From positions 2,682,068-2,746,067 of the forward strand of contig CAKZJV010000007.1 in NCBI GenBank assembly GCA_937120475.1: a DNA stretch of 64,000 nucleotides, written 5' to 3'. The notes below the pieces were generated by a model. The model saw only the letters and a program-made list of their open reading frames with translations, made no database searches and was not told the DNA's origin. The stretch's first letter is position 1, and each line of letters begins with the position of its first letter. The stretch is from an uncultured Cryomorphaceae bacterium. Its GTDB lineage: Bacteria; Bacteroidota; Bacteroidia; Flavobacteriales; Schleiferiaceae. A program made the translations under genes and the position numbers. Positions 1 through 52,394 of the stretch are shown here, one piece after another.

Positions 1-768
1 TATTCCGCCTATTTTAAAGGAGTAGAGTTAATATCCAAACTGTTTTACCTTACCGAAGCGCAATTGCGGAACCGCAAGTTTTTCTGGGAGTTTTACCGCC
101 CTATGATTAAAACCATTTTGAAGGAATACCTGTCACGTGTGCCACTCACGCAGAGAGCCCGCGCACTTCCGGAGGATAGCGGTTACCGGGATTATGAAAT
201 GGTGGATACGGGAATGGTTTTGCTGCCTGAAAACGGGACGCGACTGGATGAAATAGAGGAATTGTTGGGAGAGCCCGATGACGAGGCTGTGGAAGAGATT
301 AACGAAGCCGGAGAAATCGCTACAACTAAAACAACTAACTCAAATGTCAACTGGCCGGGTGAATTTTCATCCGATCGTTTTCGTGTGGGTGGAAGGTTGG
401 CCTACCGGGAATGGTTAACTAAAAAGGAGAGTTCTTCACTTTCGCCCACCACTACCACCGTAAAGGAAAGCGGAACGGATACCTCTTTACAACAAACCGG
501 CCAGGAGAAAACCTCCTCACAAAACCAGGTTCAAAGGCCCGATCCCGGTCAAAAGAAATGGAGAATAATCATTGCCAGCCTGCAATCTGAGGAAAGGGCG
601 CGCGATTATGTAAGCCAATTGGGCTATTCCGAATTGGATATACTATATGTGGATCATCTTAACACCAATCGCATAGCTTACGGCAGTTATGATAACCTCA
701 GGGACGCTCAAATACAGTTTGAGGAAGTGGTAAAGCGCCATCCGGATGCGTGGATGGTACTTTTTTAA
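1..768 (+). CDS. SPOR-domain protein, 5' end cut by window
   Basis: The frame is open from base 1 to the TAA at 766-768, so the gene starts before the window; the first possible start inside (TTG at 64) is not needed. The visible N-terminal part is helical and basic-aromatic (residues around FFWEFYRPMIKTIL) and is not recognised. A low-complexity Ser/Thr/Gln linker follows, then a C-terminal region of about 70 residues (KKWRIIIASLQSEERARDYV onward) with the beta-alpha-beta pattern of a SPOR domain, which in known families binds denuded peptidoglycan glycan strands. The domain call is fairly safe; the function of the upstream part is unknown. It ends tail-to-tail with the receiver gene, overlapping it by four bases. 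Confidence 0.7.
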   Translation, partial: YSAYFKGVELISKLFYLTEAQLRNRKFFWEFYRPMIKTILKEYLSRVPLTQRARALPEDSGYRDYEMVDTGMVLLPENGTRLDEIEELLGEPDDEAVEEINEAGEIATTKTTNSNVNWPGEFSSDRFRVGGRLAYREWLTKKESSSLSPTTTTVKESGTDTSLQQTGQEKTSSQNQVQRPDPGQKKWRIIIASLQSEERARDYVSQLGYSELDILYVDHLNTNRIAYGSYDNLRDAQIQFEEVVKRHPDAWMVLF

Positions 769-1139
769 CGCTTGTTTTCCAGTAACTTTTTAATGCGGGT
801 AGTCAGGTCCTTAGGGCTAAAAGGCTTGGTCATAAAATCATCAGCTCCCAGGTCAAGGGCCTTGTGAACGGCACTTTCAGAATTGAGGGAGGTAAGCATA
901 AGTATAGGAGCCTCGGTACCACGCTCCTTTAATATTTGCAGTAATTCAAAACCACTTATAAAAGGCATCATCACATCCGAAATAATGATGTCAAAGCTCT
1001 CCTGGTCCAATATTTCAATGGCCTTTTCACCGTCTTCGGCCGTTTCCACGTAATAGCCTTCCTTGGTCAGTTTAAAAGCCAGAGCATCCCGGATCAAGGG
1101 CTCGTCATCAACAATCAGTATTCTTCCGGATTCACTCAT
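765..1139 (-). CDS. single-domain response regulator (receiver only)
   Basis: The 124 residues are one complete receiver domain with no output domain. The acidic pair D11/D12, the phosphoacceptor D55 in SDVMMP, T83 and K105 (in KPFS) are all present, so it should be phosphorylatable. Stand-alone receivers of this kind usually act as phosphate shuttles or by protein contact; the partner cannot be told from here. No histidine kinase is adjacent; the nearest is the hybrid kinase 53 kb away. It converges on the SPOR gene. Confidence 0.9.
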   Translation of the reverse strand: MSESGRILIVDDEPLIRDALAFKLTKEGYYVETAEDGEKAIEILDQESFDIIISDVMMPFISGFELLQILKERGTEAPILMLTSLNSESAVHKALDLGADDFMTKPFSPKDLTTRIKKLLENKR

Positions 1140-1976: not shown

Positions 1977-2005
1977 GCCTTAAATGTTAAACCGCATAAT
2001 ATTTG

Positions 2006-2013
2006 TATATTTG
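2006..2013 (+). promoter_or_regulatory. -7 promoter element of the rimP-nusA-infB operon
   Basis: TATATTTG matches the Bacteroidetes -7 consensus TAnnTTTG exactly and lies 43 bases before rimP. A clear TTG -33 box is not seen. The expected transcript start is close to the hairpin at 2021. Confidence 0.55.
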
Positions 2014-2020
2014 CACGCTC

Positions 2021-2046
2021 AGAGGGGACTACAGTCCCCTCTTTTA
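2021..2046 (+). promoter_or_regulatory. leader hairpin with T tract before rimP
   Basis: AGAGGGGACT and AGTCCCCTCT form a perfect 10-base dyad around AC (in practice about 8 pairs with a six-base loop), followed at once by TTTTATT. It lies between the promoter and the rimP start, so it cannot end the previous gene's transcript only; it would form at the very 5' end of the operon mRNA. It could be a terminator/attenuator or a 5' stabilising stem. Function is inferred. Confidence 0.55.
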
Positions 2047-2056
2047 TTAATCCTAT

Positions 2057-2521
2057 ATGGTGGATTCGGAAAAGGTTAAGGAATTGGTAACACAAGCCTT
2101 GGATCAGCAGGGAGCTTTTTTAGTTGATTTGAAGATCGCTCCCGATTCCAGGGTTAACCTTAAAGTAGATCATAAGGATGGGGTTACGCTTGAAATGCTG
2201 ACCGCAATAAGCAGGCATGTAGAGCATAACCTGGACCGGGAGGAAGAGGACTTTTCTTTGGAAGTTTCCTCACCCGGAGTTGGAGAACCTTTAATGGTAA
2301 GGGAGCAGTACGATAAAAATGTAGGCAGGCCCATAAAGGTAACGACCAGGGATGGAGAGACGCATCGGGGGGACTTTGAAAAATTCGAGAACGATACGCT
2401 CACTATTACCTGGAAAGAGAGAGTTCCCAAGCCCGTTGGCAAGGGAAAGGTAACTGTAAAGAAGGAGTTGCAAGTGGCCCTTCAGGATGTTGAGGAAGCA
2501 AGCATAGAAATACGATTTTAA
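2057..2521 (+). CDS. rimP: ribosome maturation factor RimP
   Basis: The 154-residue protein has the RimP pattern: an N-terminal alpha/beta domain (residues 1-80, with FLVDLKIAPDSRVNLKVD and the motif LEVSSPGVGEPL near 75) and a C-terminal SH3-like barrel (KVTTRDGETHRGDFEKFEND). RimP helps assemble the 30S ribosomal subunit. It is the first gene of rimP-nusA-infB, an order conserved across most bacteria, and nusA begins 15 bases after it. Its length is normal. Confidence 0.95.
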   Translation: MVDSEKVKELVTQALDQQGAFLVDLKIAPDSRVNLKVDHKDGVTLEMLTAISRHVEHNLDREEEDFSLEVSSPGVGEPLMVREQYDKNVGRPIKVTTRDGETHRGDFEKFENDTLTITWKERVPKPVGKGKVTVKKELQVALQDVEEASIEIRF

Positions 2522-2536
2522 ATTATTTGAGATTCG

Positions 2537-3772
2537 ATGGAAAATCAGGCTATCATTGAAAGTTTTTCTGATTTTAAGGACGAGAAGAATATTGACCGGG
2601 TTACGCTTATGGCTATCATTGAAGAGGCCTTCCGTAACCAATTGACCAAGAAGTACGGAACGGACGAGAATTTCGACATCATTGTAAACCCCGATAAGGG
2701 TGATTTGGAGATATGGCGAAATCGTATGATCGTAGCCGATGGCGAGGTGGAAGATGAGAACATGGAAATTGAACTGACCGAGGCTCTTAAAATTGAACCC
2801 GATTTTGAGGTAGGCGAAGAAGTTTCTGAAGAAGTAAAACTCATTGATCTGGGGCGTAGGTTTGTGCTGGCATTCCGTCAAAACCTGGTGCAAAAGATAC
2901 AGGAGCACGACAATGGTATTATTTATAAAAAATACCAGGACCTGGAGGGTGAAATCCTCACCGGTGAGATCCACCACGTACGCCCGCGCGCGGTCATTAT
3001 ATACGATGACGATCAAAATGAACTGGTGCTGCCCAAGGATCAGCAGATACCCGGTGACTTTTACCGTAAAGGCGATACCTTACGTGCGGTAGTTCACAAT
3101 GTTGACCTCAGGGGCAATAAGCCTATGATTACGCTTTCCAGAACCAGTCCCAAGTTTTTGGCCAAGTTGTTTGAGCAGGAAATTCCGGAGGTTTTTGATG
3201 GGTTGATCGTGGTAAAGAATGTAGTGAGAGAGCCGGGTGAAAAAGCCAAGGTAGCGGTAGAGTCGTATGACGATCGCATTGACCCCGTAGGAGCCTGTGT
3301 AGGGATGAAGGGAAGCCGCATCCACAGCATTGTGCGTGAGTTGGGCAACGAAAACATAGACGTAATTAACTATACCAACAATACTCAATTATACATCCAG
3401 CGGGCACTCAGTCCGGCTAAGATTACCACTATTAACCTGGACGAGGACAACCGGAGAGCGGAAGTTTTCCTGAAGCCTGATCAGGTATCTTTAGCGATTG
3501 GTAAGCGAGGCCTGAACATCAAATTGGCCGGTCAGCTTACCGGTTTTGAGATTGATGTGTACCGTGATGTGGACGAGGAAGAAGACGTAGAGCTTACCGA
3601 GTTTACCGATGAAATTGAAGATTGGATTATCAAGGAATTAAAGTCCATTGGTTGCGATACGGCTAAAAGTGTATTGGATCTCAGCATAGAAGAGCTGGCT
3701 TCCAGAACCGACCTCGAAGAGGAAACCATCGAAGAGGTACGTAGCATATTGCGATCAGAATTTGAAGAATAA
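2537..3772 (+). CDS. nusA: transcription termination/antitermination factor NusA
   Basis: NusA binds RNA polymerase and nascent RNA, controlling pausing, termination and antitermination. The order of domains is standard: N-terminal polymerase-binding domain (1-125), S1 domain (about 136-200), KH1 with the GMKG loop near 256 and KH2 with the GKRG loop near 322. After that comes only one short helix-hairpin-helix-like segment (about 360-411) of the type found in the acidic repeats, so it has fewer C-terminal repeats than the E. coli protein, as is usual in Bacteroidetes. It lies 15 bases after rimP and 11 bases before infB. Confidence 0.97.
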
Positions 3773-45871: not shown

Positions 45872-46560
45872 TGCCGCTAACCCTCTGCATTGAAACCTCC
45901 ACCAAAAATTGCTCGGTAGCCCTGTCGCGTGATGGCGAAGTACTGGCCAGTAAAGAGCAAAGTGACGACCAATACATCCACTCCGAAAAACTCCATTTGT
46001 TTATCCGGGAAGTGCTGGATGCAGCCGGTTTTAAGGCGGCCGACCTGGATGCCGTAGCTGTGGGTAAAGGCCCGGGTTCGTACACCGGTTTGCGCATTGG
46101 CATATCAGCCGCCAAAGGCCTTTGCTATACCCTGCAAATTCCCCTTTTAGCGATAGACGGATTATCCATTTTGGCACAGGATTTTATCCAGCGGCATCAC
46201 CCGGCAGAAGGTGAATTGATCCTGCCCATGCTGGACGCCCGCAGGATGGAGGTTTATACCGCACTGTACGATTACCGGGGAAATCGCCAGGGGGAGATTG
46301 AAGCCAGAATTCTGGATGAAAGTTCCTTTGCAGAGCTTTCCTCAACCGCTATTCATTTAATAGGGGATGGTGCCACCAAGGCTAAAACCGTACTTACGGA
46401 CGATCGCTTTCAATGGCACGAACTCCCTTTTCCCTCTGCCAAAACTTTAGCCCGTTTAGTACCAGCCAAACTTCAAAATAAGGAGTGGGAAGATGTGGCC
46501 TACTTCGAGCCTTTTTACCTCAAGGATTTTGTAGCCGGGAAGCCGAAGAAACTGCTGTAA
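45871..46560 (+). CDS. tsaB: tRNA threonylcarbamoyladenosine biosynthesis protein TsaB
   Basis: TsaB works with TsaD and TsaE to make t6A37 in tRNAs. The 229 residues are of normal length: LCIETSTKNCSVALSRDGEV at the start, VGKGPGSYTGLRIGISAAKGL (about 67-87) and PMLDARRMEVYTALYD (about 118). The last 130 bases (46431-46560), coding SAKTLARLVPAKLQ to KKLL, are repeated 270 bases downstream with six changes, so the gene's 3' end has been duplicated or replaced. The start overlaps the adaptor gene by one base. Confidence 0.94.
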   Translation: MPLTLCIETSTKNCSVALSRDGEVLASKEQSDDQYIHSEKLHLFIREVLDAAGFKAADLDAVAVGKGPGSYTGLRIGISAAKGLCYTLQIPLLAIDGLSILAQDFIQRHHPAEGELILPMLDARRMEVYTALYDYRGNRQGEIEARILDESSFAELSSTAIHLIGDGATKAKTVLTDDRFQWHELPFPSAKTLARLVPAKLQNKEWEDVAYFEPFYLKDFVAGKPKKLL

Positions 46561-46580
46561 TAAGAACAATTACTCCATTG

Positions 46581-46660
46581 CCTTCTATGAGTAGCGTTCA
46601 GCTACGCTTTGTTATATTGCAAAATAGGAGGCTGTAGCGGGACGCTACAGCCAGTAAGGT
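46581..46660. repeat. repeat family A, copy 1 (two-hairpin element)
   Basis: An 80-base element: first stem GTAGC/GCTAC (46591-46605), link TTGTTATATTGCAAAATAGG, then a perfect 10-base stem GGCTGTAGCG-GGA-CGCTACAGCC (46630-46652) and AGTAAGG. It closely matches the copy at 50688-50767, and its first half the copy at 46983. Both stems share GTAGCG. It is probably a repetitive extragenic palindrome; no coding capacity. Confidence 0.75.
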
Positions 46661-46703
46661 TTTTTTACGAAATTATGCGGGGTTTAAGTCTGGGTACGGC
46701 TCC
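46659..46703. repeat. direct repeat D, copy 1
   Basis: About 45 bases (GTTTTTTTACGAAATTATGC, then GGG and TTTAAGTCTGGG and ACGGCTC) repeated with few changes at 46908-46954. It directly precedes the copied tsaB tail. Confidence 0.75.
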
Positions 46704-46830
46704 CTCCGCCAAAACTTTAGCCCGTTTAGCCCCGGCCAAACTTCAAAATAAGGAGTGGGAAGATGTGGCCTACTTCGAGCCTTTTTACCTCAAGGATTTT
46801 GTGGCGGGGAAGCCGAAGAAACTGCTGTAA
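46701..46830 (+). pseudogene. duplicated 3' end of tsaB
   Basis: 130 bases that match the end of tsaB (46431-46560) at 124 positions, including its stop codon. The six differences affect five codons: four are silent and one changes Val to Ala. It has no start of its own and no N-terminal ATPase part, so it cannot work as TsaB; an open frame reaching back to about 46609 looks accidental. It is an orphan tail left by a duplication, or by insertion of a segment that brought a new tail. Confidence 0.85.
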
Positions 46831-46907
46831 GGGAGCAAAGCCCAAGGAGACCGCAGCTTCTTATCGGTGAAAACGCCTCTTCAAAAAGTATGAAAGCCTG
46901 CATACGG

Positions 46908-46954
46908 GTTTTTTTACGAAATTATGCGGGATTTAAAGTCTGGGGACAGCTCTC
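46908..46954. repeat. direct repeat D, copy 2
   Basis: Matches 46659-46703 (GTTTTTTTACGAAATTATGC, then GGG[A]TTTAAAGTCTGGG and ACAGCTC). With copy 1 it brackets the orphan tsaB tail. Confidence 0.75.
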
Positions 46955-46982
46955 AGTAAGGGAATAAAACCGGTATTAGCTA

Positions 46983-47021
46983 CCCCTCCTAAGCGTAGCG
47001 TCTCGCTACGCTTGGTTATCC
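46983..47021. repeat. repeat family A, copy 3 (first hairpin only)
   Basis: CCTCCTAAGCGTAGCG-TCT-CGCTACGCTTGGTTAT: a perfect 10-base stem (AAGCGTAGCG/CGCTACGCTT, three-base loop). It matches the first half of copies 1 and 2; the second hairpin is missing. Between 46831 and 47291 no gene is seen. Confidence 0.7.
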
Positions 47022-47094
47022 CATTCGTCAATTCTGAACGCACGAAAACCATGCAGTTAAATTAGAAACCAACGCCATTTTGGATAGCCACCTG

Positions 47095-47190
47095 CCTAGG
47101 CGTAGTTTGCAACCACTCCAGCTTATCCTTCGCCCTATAGTCAAATGGAAACAGACAAGATATAGCGGTATAGTTGCAAACTACACCGGG
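47095..47190. repeat. repeat family B, copy 1
   Basis: A 96-base element with a palindromic arm at each end: GGCGTAGTTTGCAACCACTCC (47099-47119) and GGTATAGTTGCAAACTACACC cut as 47167-47187. The arms are inverted repeats of each other with four mismatches and each can fold on itself (GTAGTT...AACTAC). The middle (TTATCCTTC, ATAGTCAAATG, GATATA) is conserved in the copy at 50119-50217. It looks like a small non-autonomous element. Confidence 0.75.
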
Positions 47191-47291
47191 ATTTGGAGAA
47201 ATTAAACACTATCCACTGCTTGGTTGGATGGTCAAAAAAATGCCTCTAAACAAAATGATGCCATTGAAAGTAACTTTATAAAACAAAGAGG

Positions 47292-47501
47292 ATGATACGC
47301 GAAGGATCTAAAGTAAAATGGAAGTGGGGCCAGGGCACTGCCCTTGGTGAGGTAAAAGCAACCTATGCAAAGGAAGTGACCCAAAACATTGATGGCAATG
47401 AGATTACACGGAAGGGCGAGCCGGGTAACAAGGCACTGTTAATAGTGCAGGAGGATGGAGCCGAAGTATTAAAACTGGAAAGCGAAGTAGAAAAGCAATA
47501 G
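47292..47501 (+). CDS. DUF2945 (hypervirulence-associated TUDOR-like) protein
   Basis: 69 residues, starting MIREGSKVKWKWGQGTALGE and including ITRKGEPGNKALLIVQEDGA: the pattern of DUF2945, a small SH3/TUDOR-like barrel with no proven role in bacteria despite its name. It is an isolated gene in the repeat-rich stretch; AGAGG touches the ATG, too close for a normal ribosome site. Confidence 0.85.
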   Translation: MIREGSKVKWKWGQGTALGEVKATYAKEVTQNIDGNEITRKGEPGNKALLIVQEDGAEVLKLESEVEKQ

Positions 47502-47576
47502 GCTCAAACCTGTTGAAGGGCTAAGGTTGTAGAGGGGCACCACAAACAAAGAACCCCAGTTTGTGTTTTTCTTCGC

Positions 47577-48353
47577 ATGTCTGATGAGCAAATAAAGGAA
47601 CCGGGGGAGGTTGTAAATGAGCAGATAAGCTTAGGGAGTAAGATATACAATATGCCCTCTCATAAGCTGTTCATATCCTCTTTTACGGCTGGGTTGGAAA
47701 TTAGTTTTAGCCTGGTGCTCATGGGGCTGCTATACACCATGTTTGAAGGTCAGCTTTCAAAATCAGCCCTTTCACTGGTAATAAGTCTTGGCTATCCCAT
47801 AGGTTTCATCTTTGTGATCATGGGCCGGTCAGAGTTGTTTACCGAGCAAACGGCCCTGGCCATGGTGCCGGTACTCAATAAAGATCAGTCTTTAAAGTCC
47901 CTGGTCAGATTATGGATGGTAGTACTGTTAGGCAATTTAATCGGTGGCCTGCTATTTTCATTGTTTATCAGCTGGTTTGGGCCTGCAAAGGGAATTGTTT
48001 CGGCAGAGGCTTTAGAGCATATTGCCCAAAAATTTATTGATCAGCCTCTAGTTTTGGTTTTAGGTAGTGCTTTACTGGCTGGTTGGATGATGGGTTTGCT
48101 GGGCTGGTTGCTAACTTCGGCCCGGGAATCTATAGCCAGGATAATGCTCATCATTTTAGTTACCATTATCATAGGCTTTGCCAACCTACACCACTGTGTG
48201 GTGGGTTCTGTAGAGGTTTTAAGTGCTCTGTGGTTGGAGGAAAGCGTAAGTTGGAGCGATTACCTACAGTTTCTTTGGCCCTCGGTAGTGGGTAATATTT
48301 TGGGTGGGGCACTCTTTGTTTCGGTTTTAAAATTTGCGCTTACCAAAGAATAA
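47577..48353 (+). CDS. formate/nitrite transporter (FNT) family channel
   Basis: 258 residues with six membrane helices. LFISSFTAGLEISFSLVLMG, GRSELFTEQTALAMVPVLN and the end NLHHCVVGSVEVLSALWLEE with WPSVVGNILGGALFV match the FNT family (YfdC-like branch), pentameric channels for small monovalent anions such as formate, nitrite or hydrosulfide. The His of the channel centre appears in LHHCVVG. Substrate cannot be stated. It stands alone. Confidence 0.9.
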   Translation: MSDEQIKEPGEVVNEQISLGSKIYNMPSHKLFISSFTAGLEISFSLVLMGLLYTMFEGQLSKSALSLVISLGYPIGFIFVIMGRSELFTEQTALAMVPVLNKDQSLKSLVRLWMVVLLGNLIGGLLFSLFISWFGPAKGIVSAEALEHIAQKFIDQPLVLVLGSALLAGWMMGLLGWLLTSARESIARIMLIILVTIIIGFANLHHCVVGSVEVLSALWLEESVSWSDYLQFLWPSVVGNILGGALFVSVLKFALTKE

Positions 48354-48377
48354 CCAGAGCGTTAAAGCATGCCCCCG

Positions 48378-48415
48378 GCTAGGCGTAGTTGGTAACTACA
48401 CCTGAATATACTTCC
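48378..48415. repeat. repeat family B, copy 3 (left arm only)
   Basis: GGCGTAGTT-GGT-AACTACACC (48382-48402) forms a hairpin with one mismatch; with the flanks CTA before and the A/T-rich TGAATATACTTC after, it aligns to the left end of copy 1. The rest of the element is missing. It lies between the FNT gene and the type IX-sorted gene; in copy 2 the same arm follows that gene. Confidence 0.7.
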
Positions 48416-48508
48416 TGCGCCCGGCAGATTCTTTTCTTAAAAAAGACCGGATTAGGCGTATCTTTCTCCTCCATTTTTCTTTGAGATAAACCCCTATTTA
48501 CCTGAACC

Positions 48509-50116
48509 ATGAAATCCTGTTTCCTGCTTTCATTGATAGTGCTTTTGAGTGTACCCCTCAGCGCACAAATCAATTTCTCCGATACCAATACTACCGCCTC
48601 CCAGGTCAGCATAGCCATTAGCAATGCCGGTACTTATGGCAATGCTTTTCGCGGGTACCGCGATGGAACCGGAAATGCCAGCGGTGAATATCCCCGGGGA
48701 AGCAGTATTGAGCACCTCTACCAGGGAGGCTTTTGGGTGGGCGGTGTACGTACGGACGGTACTACCCTGGTTTCTACTTCCGCTATAGACTTACCGCAAG
48801 GCTACGGCCCGGGGCGGGCGGGCTGTGAATTTACCTTTCCGGCTAATGATCCTTTACAGTTGCGCAGCAACCTCCCCAATAATCCCAATTTTGATATAGC
48901 AGCCGTAAGCCACGAGGATATTATCACCGAAATTACCGATGCCAATACGGTAGAGCCCGTGACCGGGACTTCCATTCCGCAGCATACTACGCCCATGGGC
49001 CTATCCGTACGCCAGGAAGTTTACAATTGGGGTTTTGCGGCTTCCAACTTTTTTGTGGTAGTGGATCTGACCCTTACCAACAACGGCTCCCATACTTTTG
49101 ACAGTCTTTTTGTGGGGCTGTACAATAACACGGTGGTTCGCAATGTGAATGTAACACCCGCAGGCGCAGGAGGTAGTGCTTTTTACAATAAGGGAGGTAA
49201 CGGTTATATGGATGATCTTCACATGGCCTACGGTTACGATGCGGCCGGAGATACCGGTTCCACCGAAAGTTACGTGGGGCAGGTATTTTTGGGCAGTGAA
49301 GATAAATACGGTTTTCATCACCCGGATATCCCCAATTTTCAGAACCGGATCAGCGGCTTAGCGGAAGCAGAGCCCCTAAAGTTACATTACAATACCTGGG
49401 AGTTTAATTGTGGTAATTGTCCGGCACCCTTTTTTGCACCCGGCAACGATGATCTGCGTTTTCAGTATTTGTCGGCCGGAATCAACCACAACCCTTGTTG
49501 GGATAATCCCGGAGGAGCACCCTGCCAGGGAGGTTTAAACCTCGATATTCAAAATGTGATCAATCAGCCCGGTAACCGTTCCGATTTAGTAGGGGCCGGG
49601 CCCTTTAAAACTTTTGCGCCCGGTGATGAGGTGAAAGTAACCTTCGCTTATGTGTTTGCGCCCAAACAGGAAGACGGCCAGCCCAATTCCGTAAACAGTG
49701 CTTTTCATCGTGCTAACCTTATTACCAACGTTCAAAAAGTGCAGCAATACTTTAACGGTGAGGACGTGAACTTCAATGGAGTACTGGATGCCGGTGAGGA
49801 TTTGGATAATGACAATTCCATAGACCGTTGGATGGCTTCACAGATGATTTCCGTACAGGAAAGCACACCAACGCTTCCGGCTTTTATGCCTAACCCCATA
49901 CATGATTTCTTGAGGATAGACCTTGGAGTCGAGGAATATAAGAGCCTGAGCCTGCAGGTTTGGGATGTAAACGGAAAACGTATGGCCCGGCAAGAGCTCC
50001 AAGACTTTTCTTCTTCCATTAACCTTCCTTGCTCCAAATGGCCAGCAGGTTTGTACTTAGTTCATTTACAGGATGAAAAGGGCCGGATTTTTAAGGGGAA
50101 GGTGGTGAAGGAATAA
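48509..50116 (+). CDS. secreted protein with Ca-binding loop and type IX (type A) sorting domain
   Basis: 535 residues: signal peptide (MKSCFLLSLIVLLSVPLSAQ), a large beta-rich body of unrecognised family (GGFWVGGVRTDGT, NFFVVVDLTLTNNG, FAPGDEVKVTFAYVFAP), two EF-hand-like acidic loops in DVNFNGVLDAGEDLDNDNSI (about 425-445) and a C-terminal type A sorting domain (FMPNPIHDFLRIDLG to GKVVKE). Four Cys between 300 and 340 may form disulfides. SprA provides its export route. Copies of repeat B lie on either side. Confidence 0.85.
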   Translation: MKSCFLLSLIVLLSVPLSAQINFSDTNTTASQVSIAISNAGTYGNAFRGYRDGTGNASGEYPRGSSIEHLYQGGFWVGGVRTDGTTLVSTSAIDLPQGYGPGRAGCEFTFPANDPLQLRSNLPNNPNFDIAAVSHEDIITEITDANTVEPVTGTSIPQHTTPMGLSVRQEVYNWGFAASNFFVVVDLTLTNNGSHTFDSLFVGLYNNTVVRNVNVTPAGAGGSAFYNKGGNGYMDDLHMAYGYDAAGDTGSTESYVGQVFLGSEDKYGFHHPDIPNFQNRISGLAEAEPLKLHYNTWEFNCGNCPAPFFAPGNDDLRFQYLSAGINHNPCWDNPGGAPCQGGLNLDIQNVINQPGNRSDLVGAGPFKTFAPGDEVKVTFAYVFAPKQEDGQPNSVNSAFHRANLITNVQKVQQYFNGEDVNFNGVLDAGEDLDNDNSIDRWMASQMISVQESTPTLPAFMPNPIHDFLRIDLGVEEYKSLSLQVWDVNGKRMARQELQDFSSSINLPCSKWPAGLYLVHLQDEKGRIFKGKVVKE

Positions 50117-50118
50117 AC

Positions 50119-50217
50119 AGGCTACAACTAGTTTGTGACTACGCCTGATTATCTTCATCTCATAGAGTCAGATGTAAATAGATTGGATATAGGGGTGTAA
50201 TTGCAAACTACACCGAG
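50119..50217. repeat. repeat family B, copy 2
   Basis: Left arm degenerate (CTAGTTTGTGACTACGCC, about 50128-50145), right arm GGTGTAATTGCAAACTACACC (50194-50214) folding with one mismatch; the middle TTATCTTC, ATAGAGTCAGATG, GATATA aligns base by base with copy 1. It begins three bases after the sorting-domain gene. Confidence 0.75.
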
Positions 50218-50293
50218 TTGGGGACTTATCCATAACGACTCCTGTAATTAGATAGTAATAAAGTTTTTGAATCTGAAAAAGTGAGCCAAACCG

Positions 50294-50629
50294 ATGAATT
50301 ACAACGGTAAAAAGTTTAAAACACAAAGCAATTCCGTAAACGGTGAGACCTCATCCGATACCGTATTTAATTATAATCAGGAAGGCAACTTGTTGAAAGG
50401 AACCTACTCGGGCGGAAAGATAAAATTTGGGCATTTGATAGGTTTGGTTGACGAAATGGGTAATATTGATATGCGGTATCATCAAGTAAATATCAAGGAT
50501 CAATTAATGACAGGGACTTGCTTTTCAAGGCCCGAAGTTTTACCAAACGGAAAGTTGCTTCTACGCGAAACCTGGCAATGGACAAGTGGAGATAATTCAA
50601 AAGGCACATCGATTATTGAGGAAATTTAA
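50294..50629 (+). CDS. small conserved protein, often mislabelled n-acetylglutamate synthase
   Basis: 111 residues (MNYNGKKFKTQSNSVNGETS, VFNYNQEGNLLKGTYSGGKI, GLVDEMGNIDMRYHQVN, LRETWQWTSGDNSKGTS). It matches in memory a widespread short family of Flavobacteria that databases sometimes name n-acetylglutamate synthase. It has no acetyl-CoA binding motif (no RxxGxG/A) and is far too short and beta-rich for ArgA, so the name should not be used. It appears soluble, with no signal. Function unknown. Confidence 0.75.
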   Translation: MNYNGKKFKTQSNSVNGETSSDTVFNYNQEGNLLKGTYSGGKIKFGHLIGLVDEMGNIDMRYHQVNIKDQLMTGTCFSRPEVLPNGKLLLRETWQWTSGDNSKGTSIIEEI

Positions 50630-50687
50630 GCGTTTAATCCGCACTGCAGGGAAGGTGTAGCTTCACCTAAACCCTGATATTATTCAT

Positions 50688-50767
50688 CCCTTCTAAGCGT
50701 TGCGTCTGGCTGCACTTTGTTATCTTAGAAAATAGGAGGCCGTAGCGGGACGCTATGGCCAGTAAGG
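50688..50767. repeat. repeat family A, copy 2
   Basis: Matches copy 1 along its length. The second stem, GGCCGTAGCG-GGA-CGCTATGGCC (50738-50760), has a C for T and T for C change that gives a G-T wobble and keeps the pairing; the first stem (GCGTTGCGTCTGGCTGCAC) is weaker. A short palindrome AGGTG-TAGCTT-CACCT lies just upstream (50653-50668). Confidence 0.75.
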
Positions 50768-50852
50768 GTTATCATTGATAGCATCAATAGTAATTTCATA
50801 CTAAGAGGCATGGTGTATGGATTATAAATGTCAATTATAGTCATTTAATATT

Positions 50853-50983
50853 GTACAACGGTTTGAATAAACGCAGGGCGGCTTCATCCGTGATTTTGTA
50901 AAAAAAAGGAATGTTTCTCTGTCCACCGTAAAGCCCCTACCGGAGCGGGATTAAAGCCGCCTTGAGTTTGTTTTTTGTTGGGC
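50853..50983. repeat. attC-like imperfect palindrome
   Basis: 131 bases that open with GTACAAC (near RYYYAAC) and close with GTTGGGC (50977-50983, fits GTTRRRY). An inner perfect 8-base pair of arms, GGCGGCTT (50877-50884) and AAGCCGCC (50954-50961), and further loose matches outside it (AAACGC against AAACTC) make an extended imperfect hairpin. Length, end motifs and symmetry match the recombination sites of integron cassettes. No integrase is in the window. Confidence 0.45.
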
Positions 50984-51562
50984 TTAGTTTTTTCTTTTTA
51001 TCATCAGGTCAAGTCGATTATAAAGAGAACCATAATGGTTAAGTGTCATGGTTATTTTTGGAATTGTGTCGGTCTTATTCGTAAAATAGCTATAACCAGA
51101 TTCTCCTTCTGGCAATAGATAAAGTGAGTCGATACGTTCATGATGATTTCTTAGGAGTTGATCTATGAGTCGAAATTGTTCCTTTATGGTTGTCGTATCA
51201 GACTTTAAATAGTTCGCATGAAGATTGATAAATATGATTTTTTCGGAATATAGATACTCCCCAAAGGTATTGCTATCCAATCGTTCAGAAATCCAAAACT
51301 CATCCTTGTGTATTTCAAGCTGATAGATTTTTGCAGGGTAATTGAAAGAGTTATTTTGCTTTAGAAATCCTGAGATTGAAGTGTCCGTAGAATTGTTGCG
51401 GTCCAATTCTAGATTTCGAGCAGACCTTAATAGTTCACTATAATTCCCTTCAATCGGTAAATTCCAAAAATATTCCTTCAGTTGTCTTTGGTTCAAAGAT
51501 GGTTCAGGCGGAATTGAGAAAACTCCAAATAAAAACGAAAGTATGGTAAGGATTGGTTTCAT
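50984..51562 (-). CDS. uncharacterised secreted protein in a cassette-like setting
   Basis: 192 residues. A signal peptide-like start (MKPILTILSFLFGVFSIPPEP) is followed by a polar, mostly helical/beta mixed sequence (LNQRQLKEYFWNLP, YQLEIHKDEFWISERLD, LYLLPEGESGYSYF) that I do not recognise. The coding sequence is clearly richer in A/T than its neighbours, hinting at transfer. It is orphan, on the minus strand, with its stop codon inside one half of a 10-base inverted repeat (50977-50986) whose other half (51569-51578) lies just before its start. Confidence 0.55.
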   Translation of the reverse strand: MKPILTILSFLFGVFSIPPEPSLNQRQLKEYFWNLPIEGNYSELLRSARNLELDRNNSTDTSISGFLKQNNSFNYPAKIYQLEIHKDEFWISERLDSNTFGEYLYSEKIIFINLHANYLKSDTTTIKEQFRLIDQLLRNHHERIDSLYLLPEGESGYSYFTNKTDTIPKITMTLNHYGSLYNRLDLMIKRKN

Positions 51563-51568
51563 TTAAAT

Positions 51569-51578
51569 TAAGCCCAAC
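51569..51578. repeat. right half of inverted repeat framing the 50984-51562 gene
   Basis: TAAGCCCAAC is the exact reverse complement of GTTGGGCTTA (50977-50986). GCCCAAC also fits RYYYAAC, the opening motif of an attC site. The 241 bases from 51563 to 51803 hold no gene; a matching closing GTTRRRY was not found there, so the second site would be incomplete. Confidence 0.5.
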
Positions 51579-51803
51579 GGTTGTATATAGCGCACTACAC
51601 TATATATTCCAATATTAAAATATGGTATAAGCACTTGTTTTCTAGAGCTTTGTAAGTCAAAAGTAAATTTTAAAGTATGATTTTTTTCTCAAATAAACAT
51701 CGGCCTGCTAAAGATAAATAACTGCGGCTGCTTCTCGAAGCTACTTTCAAGATGGAAATCCTACCAGGGAAAATATCAATAGGGGAAGCCTGTAACTTCA
51801 AAC

Positions 51804-52394
51804 TTAGAAGCTGATCGTATCGCCCAGCTTCCTCACCTCCGCATACCGAAAACAATCCGTGGTATGATCATTCACCATACCGCAGGCCTGCATATGTGCG
51901 TAAATGGTAGTAGAGCCCACGAATTTGAATCCGCGCTTTTTCAGATCCTTACTAATGCGATCGGATAATTCGGTTTTAGCGGGAACCTCTTTCAAATTTT
52001 TCCAACTATTCTGAATGGGTTGGTGATCTACAAAAGACCAAAGGTATTTACAAAAGCTGCCGTCCCATTCCTCTTGTACTGCCATAAAACGTTGTGCGTT
52101 GTTGATGGCCGCATCAATCTTTTGCCGGTTGCGGATAATCCCCGCATCCTGCAAAAGCCGTTCGCGGCCGGTATCGGTAAAAGCGGCTATTTTACCATAA
52201 TCGAAGTCGGCAAAAGCCTTCCGGAAATTTTCCCGCTTCTTCAAAATGGTGAACCAGCTTAACCCTGCCTGGAAGGTTTCCAGCAGCAGGAACTCAAACA
52301 TTTTTTGATCATTGGTTACCGGTACACCCCATTCCGTATCGTGGTACTCAATGTAAAGCGGATCATTATTAAGCCAACCGCAACGTGTTTTCAT
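51804..52394 (-). CDS. tag: DNA-3-methyladenine glycosylase I (Tag)
   Basis: Tag removes 3-methyladenine from DNA. The four zinc-snap ligands known from E. coli Tag are present as C5 (MKTRCGW), H18 (EYHDTEWG), H177 and C181 (NDHTTDC). The catalytic-site Glu corresponds to E39 in FLLLETFQAGLSW. Length (196) is normal. It lies 16 bases after the MATE gene in the same direction. Confidence 0.94.
   Translation of the reverse strand: MKTRCGWLNNDPLYIEYHDTEWGVPVTNDQKMFEFLLLETFQAGLSWFTILKKRENFRKAFADFDYGKIAAFTDTGRERLLQDAGIIRNRQKIDAAINNAQRFMAVQEEWDGSFCKYLWSFVDHQPIQNSWKNLKEVPAKTELSDRISKDLKKRGFKFVGSTTIYAHMQACGMVNDHTTDCFRYAEVRKLGDTISF

Follow-up and report, generated by a model that had tools for sequence, protein, structure and literature searches.

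A second tsaB end downstream of the intact gene

We analyzed a 64,000-nucleotide stretch (hereafter, the window) of contig CAKZJV010000007.1 from an uncultured Cryomorphaceae bacterium, in which a second copy of the last 43 codons of the gene tsaB lies downstream of the gene (Table 1). The copy that belongs to the gene (tail1) and the downstream copy (tail2) form a direct repeat of 130 nt with a spacing of 270 and 95% identity; the match includes the stop codon, and an in-frame TAA ends both copies. The two tails are separated by 140 bases, and their longest common perfect run spans 68 bases (46465-46532). The six base differences (TTAAAC in tail1 vs CCCGGG in tail2) fall into five codons, four of which are changed silently (TCT/TCC, CCA/CCG, GTA/GTG, and GCC/GCG), and the sole replacement is at codon 197, which reads GTA (Val) in tail1 and GCC (Ala) in tail2. 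Both the duplication of the last 130 bases of tsaB at a distance of 270 and the count of four silent codons and one Val/Ala exchange had been reported in a first-pass annotation of this DNA, and they were confirmed by the repeat match (124/130, stop included) and by the codon comparison, respectively. The codon usage of the changed codons is mixed, with CCA being rare in tail1 and GCG being rare in tail2, and neither copy looks foreign. The live tsaB gene retains a full-length end while another end sits downstream of it, and tail2 is apparently an inert leftover.

Repeats of this kind are scarce in the genome. We sampled 464 kb, comprising the window and 20 stretches of 20 kb, for same-strand repeats of at least 80 bp and at least 80% identity lying within 3 kb of each other, and found comparable repeats in just two other places, namely a tandem array and an 81% pair of 93 bp; the tail duplication is therefore beyond chance. 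The tandem array (L177:321-875) has spacings that are multiples of 66 bases.

The copied unit extends beyond the tail. A short block, termed A, repeats after each tail, and hence the unit that was copied comprises tail, spacer, and block A, with the parts in the order tail1-S1-A1-tail2-S2-A2. The first-pass annotation had overlooked block A (46658-46702 and 46907-46952), whose copies of 45 and 46 bases differ by three substitutions and one 1-base gap in 46 columns. The 15-base core of block A has exact genome matches in A1 and A2 only, and there is no clear further copy of the block in the genome. The two spacers are mutually unrelated, thus the units of the repeat are not alike over their whole length. 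The units stand head to tail with a clean join: in a base-by-base walk, block A copy 2 could be tracked up to 46702 and the tsaB tail from 46701, with nothing inserted, so that the A1/tail2 join is almost without homology. In comparisons of S1, S2, and block A with the tsaB flank of six relatives no significant match was obtained (lowest shuffle P 0.08).

Table 1. Features of the tsaB locus and related features elsewhere in the genome. Coordinates are those of the window unless another sequence is named.
Feature	Coordinates	Strand	Basis or remark
tsaB, live gene, 229 aa	45871..46560	+	ORF; NCBIfam TIGR03725, 175 bits (cut-off 69); final part is tail1
tail1, proximal copy, belongs to intact tsaB	46431..46560	+	124/130 identical to tail2
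S1, spacer after tail1	46561..46657	.	No alignment to S2 seen
REP-type palindromic element, two hairpins	46581..46659	+	82% match at 50689-50770; overlaps first two bases of A1
A1, block A copy 1	46658..46702	+	91% to copy 2; ends where tail2 starts
A1/tail2 join	46701..46702	.	Base-by-base walk; 2 bases fit both parents, no filler
tail2, displaced tsaB end	46701..46830	+	Repeat match, ORF, codon comparison; frame and stop intact
S2, spacer after tail2	46831..46906	.	Genome search, no second match anywhere in the genome at E up to 1
A2, block A copy 2	46907..46952	+	Similarity to copy 1; runs on into downstream flank
tsaB-tag interval, 5243 bases	46561..51803	.	Probably gained DNA
tag, DNA-3-methyladenine glycosylase I	51804..52394	-	TIGR00624, 253 bits (cut-off 232.5)
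Third tsaB tail, decayed	C7:688620-688843 (= L011:4621-4844)	-	About 2.0 Mb away, same contig
REP-type hairpins, one family	L175:8804-8827 and L175:9563-9589		Flank transposase L175:8985-9530

Palindromic elements and the tsaB-tag interval

S1 consists largely of a 79-base REP-type element, of which a second copy lies near 50689-50768 (82%), and the left hairpin of the element recurs at 46985-47019. The hairpin pattern has three matches in the window vs 0.00 expected. Elsewhere in the genome, REP-type hairpins of the S1 family flank both sides of a gene for a 181-aa protein, which was identified as a REP-associated tyrosine transposase (NF047646, 99.5 bits, cut-off 80). Like REP elements associated with such transposases, the hairpins are intergenic, repeated, and next to the transposase gene; beside this gene, only 15 bases match the S1 hairpin exactly, and the sister hairpin at 46985-47019 matches better. 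REP elements usually number more than 100 copies per genome (PMC2817692, as stated there). Here, genome-wide similarity searches with S1 and with 46831-47060, together with the scanned stretches, gave only a handful of REP-type copies, a count from which short divergent copies may be missing; moreover, the element alone does not account for the copied tail. The repeat that the first-pass annotation had placed in the 140-base spacer does exist, and on the strength of its hairpins and of the transposase flanks it most likely represents a REP-type element, its small number of copies notwithstanding. Of the four terminator-like stems in 46400-47300, three fall within this element, and no Rfam family in the window reaches its gathering score. 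Ends of the TAGTTTGCAAC type mark a second palindromic family, which occurs at 47091-47190, 48374-48414, and 50119-50215 (extents partly by eye).

The gene tag is the convergent neighbor of tsaB in much of the family. Among 27 family loci outside the genus, fetched from the 68 genomes with a match, tsaB and tag are convergent, with alignments ending within about 34 bp of each other, in 14 loci, and the same convergent arrangement is given by the coordinates in G053, G067, and G087. In the other 13 of the 27 loci tag is not shown beside tsaB, some of these loci being cut short by the end of the flank or contig; one of the 13, G027, is of the same genus as three loci having tag there. Tag was found beside tsaB in none of the 80 loci of a wider genome-contig scan, nearly all of which belong to other families; both counts speak against a simple gain at the junction. 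In the window the two genes are still convergent, and the 5.2 kb between them hold a TUDOR-domain gene, a formate/nitrite transporter, a secretion-sorting-domain protein, and several palindromic repeats.

Since tsaB and tag nearly touch in 14 of 27 family loci outside the genus, the 5.2-kb interval is probably gained DNA, and the junction has probably gained different DNA across members of the genus. One genus member (G001) has 19.5 kb after tsaB without tag, which is located near the end of another contig; in a second one (G002), 7.5 kb follow the end of tag, and tsaB is found on a different contig, 232 bases short of the contig end. The genes of the 5.2 kb and the segments from G001 and G002 have none in common, apart from a weak sorting-domain match. 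The formate/nitrite transporter occurs in 4 of 21 genomes, this one among them, which is a patchy distribution; G001 encodes it on a different contig from tsaB. For G001 and G002, rearrangement may be an alternative to gain, tsaB and tag being on different contigs. A relative of the transporter in G004 (C15:58425-59193) is split into two overlapping pieces with stops and is likely a broken gene. Gain of DNA at the junction alone does not explain tail2, which sits near the left edge of the added DNA.

Distribution and divergence of tsaB tails

Among the matches listed, additional tsaB ends are confined to this genome in all sets of relatives that we searched. In the family, 68 of 88 genomes match the last 79 residues of this TsaB, and more than one match occurs in this genome alone (all candidates scored). 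In the order, 377 of 393 genomes match a profile of 34 tails, and among the matches listed only this genome has more than one; 14 of the first-look candidates were scored where a genome had more, so that a weak second tail could be missed. In the phylum sample, which overlaps the order set, 95 of 247 genomes match, with more than one match again only in this genome, and the tail profile misses many distant TsaB. No second tail was found in the flanks (up to 4 kb) of the 80 loci kept from 303 relatives in the wider genome-contig scan, where the best amino acid identity is 54%.

In this genome (G000) there are four matches: tsaB itself, tail2, and, elsewhere on the same contig, a third tail that is matched in two overlapping pieces. 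The third tail is decayed, with about 50% residue identity, a frame change, and stops. Its DNA is 83 and 84% identical to that of two relatives over 81 and 68 bases, vs 82% to tail2 (66 bases) and 77% to tail1 (86 bases); as it is about equally close to the relatives and to the copies at the tsaB locus, either it is old or it came from elsewhere. No stray tsaB end was seen in the other genomes of the order, among the matches listed. S1 and S2 have no significant match in the flank of the third tail (same shuffle test, lowest P 0.08), and five genes neighboring the third tail, compared with four segments from G001 and G002 to see whether this tail had left the tsaB-tag region along with its neighbors, have no match there. 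The third tail is flanked on one side by the gene of a 1217-aa protein and on the other by a SET-domain gene, which neighbors tex.

No donor or sister strain was found above 76% DNA identity over the tail among the three genomes of the genus (own included), the 88 genomes of the family, and the 80 contig loci. The four closest tails have 73-76% DNA identity and are about equally far from tail1 and tail2 in ungapped alignments, the only ones used, with 98/96, 97/96, 94/95, and 94/92 identical positions of 129 bases to tail1/tail2, respectively. At the six differing sites neither tail is favored by these four relatives, save that Ala197 is commonest. The first-pass annotation had regarded two patterns as signs of an old tandem duplication without exchange, namely both tails being present in all relatives and the two tails being each other's closest match. 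The former was not seen, as no relative searched lists a second tail; the latter holds true and is uninformative, since there is nothing between 76 and 95% identity.

Residue 197 is Ala in 66 and Val in 1 of the 101 relatives' loci kept for the count (9 gapped loci were left out), and Ala in the four relatives closest by DNA. Given this distribution, the Val197 change probably arose in the live gene, and tail2 would carry no derived replacement, Ala197 being commonest in relatives.

The predominance of silent changes was assessed as the probability of at most one replacement among the six changes, with omega 0.05 and transition biases of 1, 2, 4, and 8. If one copy is dead and the other constrained, P is 0.024, 0.041, 0.065, and 0.088, respectively, and if the changes in the same model are counted as five codon events, P is 0.06 to 0.12 (transition bias 1 to 4). 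With both copies free P is 0.003 to 0.015, and with both constrained it is 0.78 to 0.90. The earlier reading of the silent pattern, that both tails were coding while they diverged, is thus only suggested by the values by bases against one dead copy, and the test is weak when codons are counted. Overall, the pattern suggests, not strongly, that both tails were functional ends during most of their divergence.

Probable origin of the second tail and known counterparts

The observed tail-S-A-tail-S-A order, the clean join, and the allele-like differences between the units (6 of 130 bases in the tails, three substitutions and a gap in 46 columns of block A, and wholly different spacers) lead us to favor, with slightly better than even confidence, a head-to-tail join between diverged alleles of the tsaB 3' region. 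DNA donated by a related strain or species, with tsaB-tail1-S1-A1 at its right end, would have undergone homologous recombination with the resident chromosome upstream, in tsaB or in the HlyD gene before it, while the right end would have been joined illegitimately to codon 187/188 of the resident tsaB, where the two share 2 bases. In this way tsaB would have remained whole with the donor tail, and the resident tail with S2 and block A would have been pushed 270 bases downstream and left presumably inert. The route may have been homology-facilitated illegitimate recombination (HFIR), or the alleles may have undergone an unequal exchange equivalent to it; we infer the donor, the upstream crossover, and the direction of the event, meaning which of the copies is the resident one. 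The clean 2-base join, the mostly silent changes, the lack of a derived replacement in tail2, and a junction that looks open to DNA gain are consistent with the joining of two alleles. Against it, the best relative has just 76% identity, the silent-change test is weak by codon, and the different donor spacer demands a history of its own.

The same topology and clean join would also result if tail-S-A (about 250-270 bp) had been duplicated in tandem within a single chromosome, the ends overlapping by 2 bases, and if the copies had later diverged and one spacer had been replaced by entry of the REP-type element into S1. Such a duplication requires no donor, agrees with the two tails being each other's closest match, and could draw on the REP-type hairpins and the REP-associated transposase that are present in the genome, and we consider it possible, though less likely. 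However, the dead copy must then have collected almost only silent changes while keeping its frame and stop (P 0.02-0.09 by bases, 0.06-0.12 by codons), one spacer must have been swapped completely, and 68 perfectly matching bases would have had to persist 270 bases apart. According to PMC5426353, direct repeats recombine more often the longer their perfect homology and the closer they lie, so that long persistence of the tail pair seems unlikely. The joining of two alleles is preferred since it needs one joining event vs duplication, long survival, near-silent decay, and a spacer swap. The first-pass annotation had proposed that a segment with its own tsaB tail repaired the gene and displaced the old tail; this proposal is partly supported, as the allele-like differences, Ala197, and the single tails listed for the relatives searched agree with it, but the topology also fits a tandem duplication in one chromosome.

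Other explanations fare worse. If a site-specific integrative element had attached at the tsaB 3' end, as e14 does in icd of E. coli K-12, and later lost its interior, the scar left by it would account for the restored gene end, the old tail downstream, and the mostly silent differences, as in icd/icdC, and could be linked with the decayed third tail elsewhere in the genome. An attachment site does not predict block A after both tails and A1 joined straight to tail2, though, and the 140 bases between the tails contain no integrase and have no room for a recombinase gene; the other 376 matching genomes of the order have one match each, among the matches listed. In viral contigs, a search with one peptide pattern gave nine candidate stretches, and the sole confirmed match has tsaB as a flank. 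We consider this origin very unlikely and rejected it on the lack of room for a recombinase, the block A repeat, and the single tails listed for the relatives searched. The confirmed viral contig (L197:1-3607) carries a host-like tsaB, then a cut-off end of rmuC (616-1107, minus strand), and then phage genes with terminase subunits (2001-3607); a phage seems to sit in rmuC.

An assembly artifact, in which contig ends of two strains that overlap in tail-S-A were joined without merging, would resemble the false duplication of a haplotype overlap in an assembly of 9 contigs; it is just as improbable as an integrative element, given a 3.04-Mb contig with no N at the join, a contamination estimate of 1.75%, and a join over 2 shared bases, which would be unlike an assembler overlap. 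Hardly any credence can be given to a second tail kept for a function, for instance in gene conversion, as a spare, or within a small protein. Its intact frame and stop, with at most one replacement, and the 73-aa open frame that spans it would suit such a role; that frame, though, starts with a TTG inside the REP-type element, among the matches listed no relative searched has a second tail, and no sigma-70-type promoter-like site precedes tail2 in 46400-47300, a search to be read with the different promoters of this phylum in mind. A functional second tail was rejected for its TTG start in the REP-type element, the missing promoter-like site, and its absence from the matches listed in relatives.

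A broader and improbable extension of the allele-joining model would make the tsaB-tag junction of the genus a recombinase-free landing point, at which foreign DNA, anchored in tsaB, arrives with an end of its own and pushes the old one away; this would cover tail2, the third tail, and the differing DNA of genus members. If two alleles were indeed joined, the locus is a natural case in which the trace of an illegitimate join at a housekeeping gene can still be read, as well as an instance of DNA gain beside an essential gene without breaking the gene. It also cautions that a copied gene end with silent changes need not imply an integrase-bearing element.

Our literature search on tsaB/yeaZ returned no copied tsaB end among the matches listed, from which we do not claim its absence from print, and the counterparts considered below come from other loci. 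The closest in appearance is icdC beside the e14 prophage of E. coli K-12, where, as described in PMC11148124, a copied end of 165 bp has 12 changes and 2 conservative replacements. As here, a gene end is copied downstream, the live gene is whole with its new end, and the differences are mostly silent; in the E. coli case, however, a prophage lies between the two ends, whereas here there are 140 bases without room for a recombinase gene, plus a duplicated block A. The tail2 product thus resembles icdC in that the gene is whole and an old end is left behind, a likeness that falls short of showing membership in e14-type integration.

HFIR shares with our locus homology at one end and an illegitimate join at the other (PMC3240628), the join here having a 2-base overlap. 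In the experiments described in that report it was shown with marked donors, whereas at tsaB we infer the donor and the crossover. The same report describes, for E. coli given small DNA with the lacZ end, gene-end duplications of 109-950 bp (14 clones sequenced), most of which are put down there to a single crossover with a shortened circular donor and not to HFIR proper; HFIR itself was rare where measured, with 3e-10 events per recipient cell in E. coli conjugation (PMC3240628), which weighs against this route. As most of the duplications are ascribed to a single crossover, the work backs the outcome and not one particular route.

In another case, the orphan immunity genes and orphan 3' ends of T6SS/Rhs loci are explained, in the Vibrio model of PMC5361080 as outlined there, by a new module arriving via an upstream anchor and shifting the old end downstream. 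T6SS/Rhs loci are variable effector loci, whereas tsaB is a housekeeping gene whose new end is equivalent to the old one. Pneumococcal merodiploids illustrate that transformation can end in a tandem duplication when incoming DNA takes part in an unequal exchange (PMC3784515); in the case described there the exchange proceeds via existing repeats and involves whole genes, with 107 kb duplicated, in contrast to the 2-base join and 270 bases at our locus. Overall, tail2 is most likely a gene end displaced by recombination, a small scar whose general kind is known.
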